Shown piece after piece: positions 51,462 to 57,371 of a stretch of 64,000 nucleotides of DNA. Position numbers and translations under genes: made by a program. Position 1 is the first letter of the stretch. Each line of letters begins with the position of its first letter. Under the pieces are notes generated by a model. The model did not search any database. It saw only the letters and a list, made by a program, of their open reading frames with translations, and had not been told where the DNA came from. The DNA comes from Ruminococcus sp. (GTDB lineage: Bacteria > Bacillota > Clostridia > Oscillospirales > Ruminococcaceae), in assembly GCA_029062165.1 (NCBI GenBank), contig JAIDQQ010000015.1:1-64000 (forward strand), read 5' to 3'.

Positions 51462-51647
51462 ATGCAGAAAATGCTGATAGTAAGTAGTCTATATAACGAA
51501 TATGGAAATTTATTAGGAGGCAATGGATTAGATAAGTTAAATAAATATCTCGCTGAAGGTTGGAAAGTTGTTAATATGAAGGAATCTGGAACAATTGATA
51601 AAGCCGACTATGTTTTACACGTATGTTACGTAGTGATTGAAAAATAA
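51462..51647 (+). CDS. Small hypothetical protein (DUF4177-like size/pattern)
   Basis: SD aaggaggtgat; GLDKLNKYLAEGWKVVNMKESG. Confidence 0.6.
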   Translation: MQKMLIVSSLYNEYGNLLGGNGLDKLNKYLAEGWKVVNMKESGTIDKADYVLHVCYVVIEK

Positions 51648-51673
51648 ATCCGAAAAAATTTTCATATTAACCC

Positions 51674-51702
51674 TTGACAAATTTAATAAAATATGATAGA
51701 AT
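51674..51702 (+). promoter_or_regulatory. Strong sigma-A promoter (TTGACA-N17-TAGAAT)
   Basis: TTGACA 51674-51679, TAGAAT 51697-51702; no ORF starts until 52004. Confidence 0.8.
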
Positions 51703-51708
51703 GATACA

Positions 51709-51980
51709 AATTGCAGAAGAAGCTTCGGTTTCATGTACCGCCATTCTGTTGACGGTGAGGCAAGATTTTTTAACCGGCAATGTAAAATTGCCTTATTGAT
51801 TCGGCTTTGTGCCAATAAATTTTTATAAGTTTTCATCAGCTTGTGAAAGGTCAATAAGAGTAGTAAAAGGTAATCTTTGCTTATATAGACTCTGAAACCA
51901 ATATGAAGTTATAATGCATAATTATATGTATTTTCATGCACGTACCGGTTGATGAAACCTGTATGTGCATTTTATTTTAT
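51709..51980 (+). ncRNA. Candidate structured ncRNA / speD leader, ~260-270 nt, unassigned
   Basis: Starts at predicted TSS; enclosing pairing GGTTTCA (~51728) with TGAAACC (~51893); internal hairpins TACCGcCA/TGaCGGTg, GGCAA-tgtaaaa-TTGCC, TTTCA/TGAAA; ends with terminator 51937-51980. Confidence 0.6.
51937..51980 (+). terminator. Intrinsic terminator at the 3' end of the candidate ncRNA / speD leader
   Basis: TGCACGTACcGGTT-gatga-AACCtGTATGTGCA followed by TTTTATTTTAT. Confidence 0.82.
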
Positions 51981-52003
51981 GTTATAACTTTATGAGGTGA
52001 AAT

Positions 52004-52783
52004 ATGGAAAATAAATTAAAACTTTACGGATTCAATAACCTTACGAAGTCATTGAGTTTCAATATATACGATGTATGTTACGCCAAGACACCTAAGGCAC
52101 AACTCGACTATATAGCATATATCGACAAGGCATATAATTCCGAACGCATAACAGAAATAATGACCACTCTTACTACAATGATTGGTGCAAAAGTCCTAAG
52201 TATTTCCCGACAGGATTACGACCCACAAGGAGCATCGGCAACATTTCTTATTGCAGACGATACTATGATACCGGCTGGCAGTGAGACTATAGCACATCTC
52301 GATAAAAGCCATGTGACAGTACATACCTATCCGGAGTACCACCCCGATACGAATATAGCAACTTTCCGAGTAGATATAGATGTTGCGACTTGCGGAAAAA
52401 TAACACCACTCACCGCCCTCGACTATCTGGTAAACAGTTTTGATTCCGATATAATAACAATGGATTACAGGGTCAGAGGCTTTACACGTAACGTCACCGG
52501 TCAGAAACTCTTCATAGACCATGATATAACATCTATACAGGATTATATCAATGACGAGATACTCGAAAGATACGACGCTGTTGACATTAATGTATATCAG
52601 GCAAATATGTTTCATACGAAGATGTTGATAAAGGAAATAGAATTACAGAACTACTTGTTTAATACAGATGTTCGGGAACTCTCACCACGTAACCGGTTGG
52701 CGATAACAAACAGTCTCCGGCGAGAGATGATAGAAATTTTCAGCGGAAGGAATGTTTTTGAAAATGGGACTTTCACAGATTAA
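52004..52783 (+). CDS. speD: S-adenosylmethionine decarboxylase proenzyme (E. coli-type)
   Basis: [42 protein letters not shown] processing site (Lys-Ser). Confidence 0.95.
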
Positions 52784-54209
52784 CGCACCTATATACGAGG
52801 CTTTAAGAAGATTCCGTCGTATGCGTGTAGTACCTTTTGACGTACCTGGACATAAAAGAGGTAGGGGCAATATGGAACTCACGGAATTTTTAGGCGAGGA
52901 CTGTATGAGTGTCGACGTAAATTCAATGAAACCGCTTGACAATCTGTGTCATCCTGTATCAGTAATAAAAGATGCGGAATATCTTGCCAGTGAGGCTTTC
53001 GGAGCGGAAAATGTTTTCTTCATGGTAGGTGGTACTACTTCAGCGGTACAAAGTATGATAATGTACGCCTGTAAGAGTGGTGATAAGATAATCATGCCAC
53101 GGAACGTCCACCGGAGTGCGATAAATGCCCTTATTCTGTGTGACGCCGTACCAGTATATGTCAATCCGGAAGTCAATAAACAACTCGGAATAGCACTCGG
53201 AATGTCGGTGAAGCAGGTAGAAAAAGCTATTGAAGAAAATCCCGACGCTAAAGCCATACTAGTGAATAATCCAACATATTACGGAATATGTTCAGACCTT
53301 AAGAAAATAACTGAAATCGCACACGCACATGGTATGCTTGTACTCGTCGACGAAGCACACGGAACACATTTCTATTTTGGTGAGGATTTCCCGATAACCG
53401 CCATGCAATCCGGTGCGGATATGGCGTCAGTGAGTATGCATAAATCAGGCGGAAGCCTTACACAGAGTTCGTTTCTGCTTATGGGAAAGAATATAAATTC
53501 CGATTATATGCGACAGATTATAAACCTTACACAGACAACAAGTGCATCATATTTACTGCTGTCAAGCCTTGATATTTCACGTAAAAGACTTGCATTAAGC
53601 GGACGTGAAATTTTTGCGGAAACGGTCAGTATGGCGGAATATGCACGTTCTGAAATAAATTCTATAGGCGGATATTATGCCTATTCAAGAGAATTAATAA
53701 ACGGCGATAGTATATATGATTTTGACGTTTCAAAACTTTCGGTATATACCTTGCCTATCGGACTTGCCGGAATAGAAGTATATGACCTGCTCCGAGATGA
53801 GTACGATATACAGATAGAATTTGGTGATATAGGTAATATTTTAGCATATATTTCCGTCGGTGATAGAAAACGTGATATAGAACGTCTTATAAGTGCTATG
53901 TCGGAAATAAAAAGACGTTTCGGGAAATCGGGAGCAGGTATGTTGACACAGGAGTATATAACCCCTATAGTAGCGGAAACTCCACGAAAGGCGTTTTATG
54001 CAGATAAGATGTCATTACCGCTTGAGAAGTCCGCCGGTCATGTATGTAGTGAATTTGTAATGTGCTATCCCCCTGGAATACCGATACTTGCCCCTGGTGA
54101 ACTGATTACGGAAGAAATCATAGAATACATAAAATACGCAAAAGATAAAGGCTGTTCCATGACCGGCACGGAAGACATTAACATTGAATATCTGAATGTC
54201 ATAATATAG
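52764..54209 (+). CDS. speA: Orn/Lys/Arg decarboxylase (probable arginine decarboxylase)
   Basis: [58 protein letters not shown]. Confidence 0.92.
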
Positions 54210-54219
54210 GGGGATTTTT

Positions 54220-54714
54220 ATGAAAAAACTGAAAGTTATGTCATATATTTATATAATATTGTTGCCGTATCTTGTAATGATGAGTATATATTTTGTTTTA
54301 TTGAAATCTGTTACATTATCGCTTGTATGTATAATATTATTGTGTATAGCCGGAATTTTTGCGTGTATTTCAAGTAACGTTTCCGCACTGGCAGACAAAA
54401 ACGACATCAGACCGGCAATTATGAATATTGTCACGAAAATATGTTATATACCTGTTTACGTTATTTGCAGATATTTTTTTCTGGGTATGCTGAATCCTTT
54501 TCTTGTGATGGTAAGCGTGATACCTTTTGCAATAGGTATATGTACTATTTGTTTTTCGGGTTTCTGTAATATAGGAGTATGTGTAAATCTTTTCCGTAAG
54601 AGCAGGTGTAAACTCGTTACGGCAGTGATATTGTGTCTTATGGGATTTGTTTACGGACTTGACATTATAGGCGGAGTGATACAGATAATATCTTGCAGAA
54701 AGAAAGGTAACTGA
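54220..54714 (+). CDS. Hypothetical multi-TM membrane protein
   Basis: ORF of mostly hydrophobic segments, SD ggggga upstream. Confidence 0.7.
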   Translation: MKKLKVMSYIYIILLPYLVMMSIYFVLLKSVTLSLVCIILLCIAGIFACISSNVSALADKNDIRPAIMNIVTKICYIPVYVICRYFFLGMLNPFLVMVSVIPFAIGICTICFSGFCNIGVCVNLFRKSRCKLVTAVILCLMGFVYGLDIIGGVIQIISCRKKGN

Positions 54715-54715
54715 T

Positions 54716-55138
54716 ATGATAAAATCATCAGTTTACTTTATTTTACTTATTTTGCTTGATATTGTTTCAATAGTTATTGCGGAAGGAAGTATTATAGAAG
54801 TCATCGGAATTGTTGCGTATTTTGTATTTCTGTTGCCGGTTGTACTTAATGTGATTTCAGTAAGAAAGTATAAGAAAGTTTTTCAGAAAATAATATTATC
54901 CTTTATGGTTTTTGTTTATATTATTACGGGAATGATTTCTATGATACATTTTGGCAGTCGTAAGATTTACAGTCAGGAAAAAGACGGTCATTATATCTAT
55001 ACAACATATGAAATCAATCCCGGAGCTATGGGACATATTTCATATATAGACAATGTTTATTATAGTCTGATTGATACTGACGGTTTTTTCAGTGTGCGTA
55101 TTGTGAAAAGTACGAGACATCACAGATACATAGGATAA
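54716..55138 (+). CDS. Hypothetical membrane protein
   Basis: ORF with 3-4 hydrophobic segments followed by soluble tail. Confidence 0.7.
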   Translation: MIKSSVYFILLILLDIVSIVIAEGSIIEVIGIVAYFVFLLPVVLNVISVRKYKKVFQKIILSFMVFVYIITGMISMIHFGSRKIYSQEKDGHYIYTTYEINPGAMGHISYIDNVYYSLIDTDGFFSVRIVKSTRHHRYIG

Positions 55139-55159
55139 AATATTACAAGGAGTTTGTTT

Positions 55160-55615
55160 ATGGTGGTTAAGGTTAAGAAAACCGGAAATCCGAAAATAAT
55201 AGGAATTGTTTTTGTAATTTGTTCCGTAATTTTTATTCTCATAGGAATGAAAACACATTATGATTTCAGAGGGCTTGAAAAAAGATGTACGGAATCTGTA
55301 ACGGCGGAAGTAGTCGAAAATATAGTAGTAAAGTCAAGAACCAAATCGAAACATAGTTCCAATATTTCCATTACTTACAAACCGGTTTTTGATTTTGACT
55401 ATAACGGAACATCTTACAGGGTAGAAAGTAACGTATCAAGTAAACCGGCACTTTTTGAAGTCGGCGAAAAAACGGAAATAAAAGTCAATCCGGAAGTTCC
55501 GGAAGAAATTTACGTACCTGCCGATAAGACCGCTAAATATATAGGTATAATATTTGCTACGGCGGGAACAGTTTTCCTTATTGCCGGAATACTGGTAATA
55601 TTGAAAGTACACTGA
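55160..55615 (+). CDS. DUF3592-like membrane protein
   Basis: Two TM helices flanking YKPVFDFDYNGTSYRVESNVSSKPALFEVGEKTEIKVNPEVPEEIYV. Confidence 0.75.
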   Translation: MVVKVKKTGNPKIIGIVFVICSVIFILIGMKTHYDFRGLEKRCTESVTAEVVENIVVKSRTKSKHSSNISITYKPVFDFDYNGTSYRVESNVSSKPALFEVGEKTEIKVNPEVPEEIYVPADKTAKYIGIIFATAGTVFLIAGILVILKVH

Positions 55616-56519: not shown

Positions 56520-57371
56520 ATGGAACTTTGGTTTACTGAAAAGCATACACCGGAAGTTAAATTTTCTATAAAAGTAGACAGACAGTTATACAGCGGTAAG
56601 AGTGAATTTCAGCGGATAGATATATTCGATTCAAAGGAGTTCGGACGGTTTCTTACTCTTGACGGTTATATGATGCTCACGGAAAAGGACGAGTTCATAT
56701 ATCATGAAATGATAACACACGTACCTATGGCGATACACCCGAATCCGAAAAATATTCTCGTAATCGGAGCAGGTGACGGCGGTGTAATACGTGAACTTAC
56801 AAATTATAACTGCGTCGAGAATATAGACCTCGTGGAAATTGACGAGCTTGTTGTTGAGGTAAGTAAGAAGTATCTTCCTACAACAGCGTGCCGTTTCGAC
56901 GATAAAAGGGTACATATTTTCTATGAGGACGGCGTTAAATACATACGTCGGTGCGAAAATAAGTATGATGTCATAATAGTCGATTCTACTGACCCTTTCG
57001 GAGTAGGTGAGGGACTTTTTACTAAAGAATTTTACGGTAGCTGTTATAAGGCACTACACGATGACGGTATCATGGTAAATCAGCATGAAAGTCCTTTCTA
57101 TGACGAAGATGCTATAGCTATGCAGAGGTCACATAAACGTATAACCGGTAGTTTTCCGATAAGCAAGGTATATCAGGCACATATACCTACTTATCCGTCG
57201 GGACACTGGTTGTTTGGATTTGCCTCAAAGAAGTATCACCCAGTCCGAGACCTGAATCAATCCGCATGGAATCTGTTAGGAATCAGAACACGATACTATA
57301 ATACAAGACTTCATGCCGGAGCGTTTGCATTACCTAATTATGTAGAGGAGTTGTTAAAAGATGTTGAATAA
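56520..57371 (+). CDS. speE: Spermidine synthase
   Basis: LWFTEKHTPEVKFSIKVDRQLYSGKSEFQRIDIFDSKEFGRFLTLDG; VIGAGDGGVIRELTNY; IIVDSTDPFGVGEGLFTKEFY. Confidence 0.96.
   Translation: MELWFTEKHTPEVKFSIKVDRQLYSGKSEFQRIDIFDSKEFGRFLTLDGYMMLTEKDEFIYHEMITHVPMAIHPNPKNILVIGAGDGGVIRELTNYNCVENIDLVEIDELVVEVSKKYLPTTACRFDDKRVHIFYEDGVKYIRRCENKYDVIIVDSTDPFGVGEGLFTKEFYGSCYKALHDDGIMVNQHESPFYDEDAIAMQRSHKRITGSFPISKVYQAHIPTYPSGHWLFGFASKKYHPVRDLNQSAWNLLGIRTRYYNTRLHAGAFALPNYVEELLKDVE

Follow-up and report, generated by a model that had tools for sequence, protein, structure and literature searches.

The DNA ahead of speD in Ruminococcus sp. (51661-52003 of the window, meaning the whole 64-kb stretch analysed) can with good confidence be read as a 5′ leader that serves the speD-ldcC-...-speE genes and attenuates their transcription in cis, with the anatomy of a riboswitch; most likely it exerts OFF-type feedback in response to spermidine or a close polyamine. 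The anatomy of this RNA, its covariation, its terminator, the coevolving antiterminator and the association with polyamine genes are all read from sequence. Two options had been left in the earlier note, a free-standing ncRNA or an attenuator of the polyamine operon; the polyamine genes found below the RNA across Bacillota, together with the terminator and the coevolving antiterminator, argue for the attenuator and against the free ncRNA.

Leader layout and downstream genes

The interval is composed, in this order, of a promoter, a structured RNA of ~230 nt, a terminator, a ribosome-binding site and the speD start (Table 1). The near-consensus promoter proposed earlier was indeed found, including an extended -10 TG, and transcription would start near 51709. 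Promoter-like sites with at least 9/12 matches are present in 175 of 193 homologous leaders, compared with 81 of 193 on the reverse strand, and lie mostly ~200 nt ahead of the TCAATAA block. The proposal of a structured, terminator-ended RNA of ~260 nt ahead of speD is borne out as well: RNAfold gives -74.8 kcal/mol for 51705-51985 (z = -4.0; none of 200 shuffles equally stable), and the hairpin at 51936-51970 is followed by a T-rich tail.

Table 1. Features of the leader and of the genes that follow it (window coordinates)
Feature	Position	Strand	Remarks
Promoter TTGACA-N17-TAGAAT	51674-51702	+	11/12 consensus matches and extended -10 TG
P1, 5′ strand GGTTTCA	51727-51733	+	pairs with 51893-51899
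Hairpin CCGCC..GGTG, clade-specific	51738-51757	+	L001-L005 compared with L007-L027; RF02440/SpF59 domain here in most relatives
P2 hairpin GGCAATGTAAAATTGCC	51776-51792	+	6/6 pairs changed on both sides among homologues
P3, TTATTGA with TCAATAA	51793-51799 with 51851-51857	+	encloses P3a and P4
P3a hairpin	51803-51805/51811-51813	+	inside P3
P4, TTTATAAGTT with AGCTTGTGAA	51822-51831 with 51838-51847	+	96.6% of cells paired; G-U and A-U replacements
Antiterminator, 5′ strand CATCAGCT	51834-51841	+	alternative partner: terminator 5′ arm GGTTGATG, 51947-51954
P5, AGAGT with ACTCT	51857-51861 with 51889-51893	+	98.6% of cells paired
P5a, AGTAA with TTGCT	51862-51866 with 51877-51881	+	inner to P5; 97.3% of cells paired
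P1, 3′ strand TGAAACC	51893-51899	+	lineage-specific complementarity above swapped controls
Intrinsic terminator hairpin ATGCACGTACCGGTTGATGAAACCTGTATGTGCAT and T-rich tail	51936-51978	+	hairpin 51936-51970, then TTTATTTT
Ribosome-binding site GAGGTG	51994	+	ahead of speD
speD, adenosylmethionine decarboxylase	52004-52783	+	NCBIfam TIGR03331, E = 1.5e-117; first gene controlled
Orn/Lys/Arg decarboxylase family gene (ldcC/speA-type)	52752-54209	+	overlaps speD end
speE, spermidine synthase	56520-57371	+	NF002010, E = 2.8e-119; TIGR00417; downstream

Upstream of the leader lies mutS2, and an orphan ORF of 61 aa without an NCBIfam match is found between the two (51462-51647). The best NCBIfam match of the decarboxylase gene at 52752-54209, lysine decarboxylase LdcC, stays below the cut-off of that family; the decarboxylase and SpeD are 98-99% identical to proteins of the uncultured Ruminococcus contig L094. 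Between the decarboxylase gene and the GNAT acetyltransferase and speE genes there are small predicted membrane-protein ORFs (54220-55615), of which the one at 54220-54711 gave no family match, and the spacing between decarboxylase and speE is greater here than in most relatives.

The gene association extends far beyond this locus. When 70 matches of the covariance model R1, described below, were examined, 68 were located directly upstream of polyamine genes, the first recognised gene being speD in 34, an ldcC-type decarboxylase in 19, carboxynorspermidine synthase in 8, potA in 7 and others in 2. Some loci have a different arrangement: in L062, L099, L111, L141 and L226 the leader precedes genes for secreted M28-like peptidases, and in L075 the gene for a C39-like secreted protein (families read from the translations), while in L228 about 2 kb of unrelated ORFs separate the leader RNA from speD. 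These peptidases have no evident tie to polyamines and speak against the proposed role, but the leaders ahead of them possibly point to a new polyamine-linked function.

The conserved core and its distribution

By blastn, the leader was found in 37 of 60 relatives; it stands ahead of speD across the whole genus and also in further families of the order, with 51837-51899 as the best-conserved stretch. An exact-pattern scan of bacterial genomes retrieved at least 118 loci, and the matches listed include Ruminococcus, Lachnospiraceae, Blautia, Gemmiger, Flavonifractor, Phascolarctobacterium, Bacillus, Robertmurraya and Lederbergia; one gammaproteobacterial match inside a coding sequence (L032) was set aside as a chance occurrence of the pattern. 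R1 was built from 72 aligned cores, with seeds from the exact-core-pattern finds and the SpF59 part excluded. Its core of ~130-150 nt is defined by helices P2, P3, P3a, P4 and P5 plus the GGTCAATAAGAGTAGTAAAAG and ACTCTG blocks, all of them present in the Ruminococcus sp. leader, and the main blocks are nearly invariant over many families. In its own genome, where the Ruminococcus sp. sequence is itself one seed row of the model, R1 finds a single copy (102 bits, E = 5e-19). Among sampled genomes, the model further matches 78 of 100 in the genus (48/55 good assemblies), 16/61 in the family, 52/197 in the order and 24/399 in the phylum.

The long-range closing stem GGTTTCA/TGAAACC noticed earlier is real and corresponds to P1, in which the 5′ end pairs with a stretch over or after ACTCTG; its sequence differs by lineage while complementarity is kept, with a score of 12.97 compared with 10.68 ± 0.25 when strands are swapped. 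In most lineages ACTCT is common to P1 and P5, here by one base only (51893); strict exclusivity of these two helices was therefore dropped, and the mechanism is not rested on it.

Covariation across homologues, which had been named earlier as the test of the structure, was found. The sampled-genome alignment has 96.7% of its cells paired and two-sided changes in 21 of 39 pairs, whereas shuffles yield 7.5 ± 1.5 such pairs and none of 500 reaches 21, counts that lean towards the fold inasmuch as the alignment was fitted to the R1 model. Sliding the partner along the alignment brings pairing below 45%. These changes are concentrated in P2, P3a and P4a; P5 and P5a together contribute five pairs, three of them in P5, and P3 is almost invariant. 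A first count had been blind to P3 and P5, which were fixed by the search pattern, and was redone on model hits from the sampled genomes; the covariation of P2 and P3a also appears on a plain MAFFT alignment. RNAalifold on the automatic MAFFT alignment returned hardly any structure because of the large length differences among leaders, and this route was replaced by anchored segments and the covariance model.

Terminator, antiterminator and predicted signal

Terminators of -12 kcal/mol or better were detected in 62 of 66 leaders, compared with 6 of 66 coding controls and 8 shuffled leaders. In 88 of 147 leaders, the sequence that best complements the terminator 5′ arm lies in the P4 3′ region (15 with shuffled arms, spread 10-21), and the antiterminator helix scores 15.8, as opposed to 10.8 ± 0.18 for shuffled arms and 13.5 ± 0.22 for arms swapped between loci; since the swap lowers the score, the pairing coevolves. 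It is often lengthened by lineage-specific bases, for instance GCAGACTTGTG/CGCAAGTCTGC in L090 and ACATCACTTGT/ACAGGTGATGT in L114. A complement search over the whole leader showed a weak mean excess (15.1 vs 14.7 ± 0.16 for arms of other loci), because the ACTTGTG target is common to all leaders, and the shuffled-arm, swapped-arm and location tests resolved this point. Being complementary to the P4 3′ strand and covarying with it by lineage, the terminator arm thus provides a built-in antiterminator, and the predicted mutual exclusion of conserved fold and antiterminator is the hallmark of a terminator-type riboswitch.

The pair AAGTTATAA/TTATAACTT, which brackets the terminator and had been suggested earlier as an alternative stem, does exist; it is probably not the switch, as among the relatives it occurs only in the closest clade (L002, L004 and L005), and neither in L003 nor in other members of the genus, and it was discarded in this role as clade-specific. 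The predicted pairing of the P4 3′ strand (51834-51841) with the terminator arm (51947-51954) is the conserved one. Besides its copy in P1, the motif TGAAACC has a second one within the terminator (51953-51959), so that GGTTTCA of P1 could pair with either; in L007 and L017 both corresponding sites read TGAAGCC.

In the OFF state, the core would be folded, with P1 closing the element, the P2 hairpin formed and P3 holding P3a and P4. The P4 3′ strand would then be hidden, the terminator would form and the polymerase would release a transcript of ~270 nt. In the ON state, pairing of the antiterminator strand with the terminator 5′ arm would break both P4 and the terminator, allowing transcription into speD. 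The antiterminator helix of Ruminococcus sp. is a short one of 8 bp, including two G-U pairs, and the antiterminator fold reaches -60.3 kcal/mol vs -74.8 for the terminator fold with the 3′ end at 51985, or -54.1 vs -58.8 with the end at 51956. By free energy, the full-length leader would settle in the terminator state, so the ON state would need a kinetic, co-transcriptional preference; kinetically kept ON states are common.

Two of the features by which metabolite riboswitches are recognised are present: the 5′ leader has a conserved, aptamer-like fold supported by covariation, and its expression platform is exclusive with that fold, given the coevolution of terminator arm and P4 3′ strand. 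The leader is thus a candidate for a polyamine class of riboswitch-type attenuator, in which direct, selective ligand binding would change expression. The signal stabilising the core would most likely be spermidine or a closely related polyamine, causing feedback repression. We infer the sign of control, the identity of the ligand and its direct, protein-free binding. A ligand that stabilises P4 would turn expression off, which fits genes that make or import that ligand, and spermidine is the simplest candidate, given that these genes span synthesis with SAM, synthesis without it by way of carboxynorspermidine, and uptake.

A different metabolite, be it SAM, decarboxylated SAM, MTA, lysine, agmatine, putrescine or carboxynorspermidine, could in principle be sensed, and the fact that speD, which uses SAM, is the commonest first gene speaks for this unlikely but serious contender. 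However, the RNA is also found ahead of the genes for carboxynorspermidine synthase and the pot importer, neither of which consumes SAM, and SAM-type Rfam families match none of the loci examined. No SAM is needed on the carboxynorspermidine route, and the sole point common to synthase, decarboxylase and importer targets is the polyamine end product; this speaks against a common signal such as SAM, dcSAM or MTA. Rather improbable is a cis attenuator in which a polyamine-sensing RNA-binding protein sets the choice between terminator and antiterminator: identical anatomy and gene association would be expected, but the conserved multi-helix core of ~130-150 nt exceeds what known antiterminator-protein sites need, and one RNA across Clostridia and Bacilli would require an equally widespread protein.

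Relation to SpF59 and to other polyamine leaders

The Rfam scan of the leader proposed earlier was run, and no family reached threshold. In the 64-kb window the sole gathering-level match is a tRNA at 3-76, permissive thresholds (E up to 10) yielded only chance matches in the leader, and no T-box, 6S or raiA covariance model matched; raiA and 6S, which the earlier note had put forward as first candidates, are thereby excluded at Rfam thresholds. RF02440 (SpF59_sRNA or ‘ldcC RNA’, threshold 37.2 bits) is likewise without a match in the Ruminococcus sp. leader, at gathering level or at E up to 10, because this clade has lost the SpF59 domain: L001-L005 keep GCAAGATTTTTT, followed by a short lineage-specific hairpin and then P2. 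In relatives, RF02440 occupies the same place, right after the promoter, in 11 of 12 orthologous leaders scanned. Each of the ten RF02440 matches in 300 genomes of the phylum stands immediately upstream of an R1 core match in the same genome, from which it follows that RF02440 is the 5′ subdomain of a larger RNA, and an optional one, since ~11 of 70 cores do without it by a liberal motif test. The family of 54 nt, typed as an sRNA gene, thus covers the 5′ subdomain only. The earlier note could not assign the RNA to a class known to it; the Ruminococcus sp. copy matches no Rfam family, but a 5′ subdomain carried by most relatives is SpF59.

In Streptococcus pneumoniae, the counterpart F59 (srn235, Spd_sr49; TIGR4 869478-869804) lies in the gap between SP0915 and SP0916, the latter an arginine decarboxylase gene (PMC3395615, PMC7531197, PMC12323649). 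Its detection as a discrete RNA and its catalogue entry among the putative sRNAs (PMC3395615, PMC12323649) would be in line with a trans-acting small RNA. A terminated leader would look alike, so that a discrete RNA fits both; the position is fixed ahead of polyamine genes at 68/70 loci, and a terminator and antiterminator stand between RNA and start codon, synteny and a coevolving antiterminator being needless in trans, which makes a trans-acting role very improbable. Our analysis instead suggests that F59/srn235 is a cis-regulatory leader. The lung phenotype reported for it in a screen (PMC4387999) may stem from altered regulation, in cis, of the neighbouring arginine decarboxylase gene. Hence the 5′ part was already known as the RF02440 sRNA or F59, and what appears new, on the sequence evidence, is the full element with its switch as an attenuator of polyamine genes; no description of either as a regulator was found in the openly licensed literature.

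Other leaders of polyamine genes differ from this one. The odc1 motif incorporates a uORF (PMC8632094), and the short ORFs of the present leader, such as one of 41 aa at 51674-51799, might suggest comparable leader-peptide or uORF attenuation, but that ORF begins within the -35 box, the conserved blocks differ in length and spacing by non-multiples of three across homologues, in agreement with the earlier claim of no supported ORF, and conservation is of the paired-RNA type, leaving this explanation scarcely credible. A GTG-opened frame in GTGAAAGGTCAATAA also meets an immediate stop in Ruminococcus. The speF leader is known from alphaproteobacteria (PMC11477304) and has no Rfam match in the Ruminococcus sp. 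leader. The accepted spermidine riboswitch, a variant of SAM-I described as rare (PMC10853860), resembles the leader in its position ahead of ldcC, speB, speE and other polyamine genes and is a spermidine-responsive OFF switch of the terminator type, but the two differ in sequence and helices. SAM-I-type families gave no match in the window, nor in the 22 homologous loci scanned; a strongly diverged variant might still score below threshold.

Polyamines bind all RNA, and selective sensing of them by RNA has been a matter of dispute; the authors who described the accepted class expect more to exist (PMC10853860). On balance, we favour a widespread, putative polyamine riboswitch class in Bacillota, with a core of 130-150 nt and an optional 5′ domain of 54 nt (RF02440), unrelated in structure to the SAM-I-derived spermidine riboswitch and governing two synthesis routes and import via termination. 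Through such a leader, polyamine genes would probably be shut off when polyamine is sufficient. Being common, located ahead of genes for import and for biosynthesis by two routes, and equipped with a clear switch, this leader makes the question of polyamine sensing by RNA directly testable.
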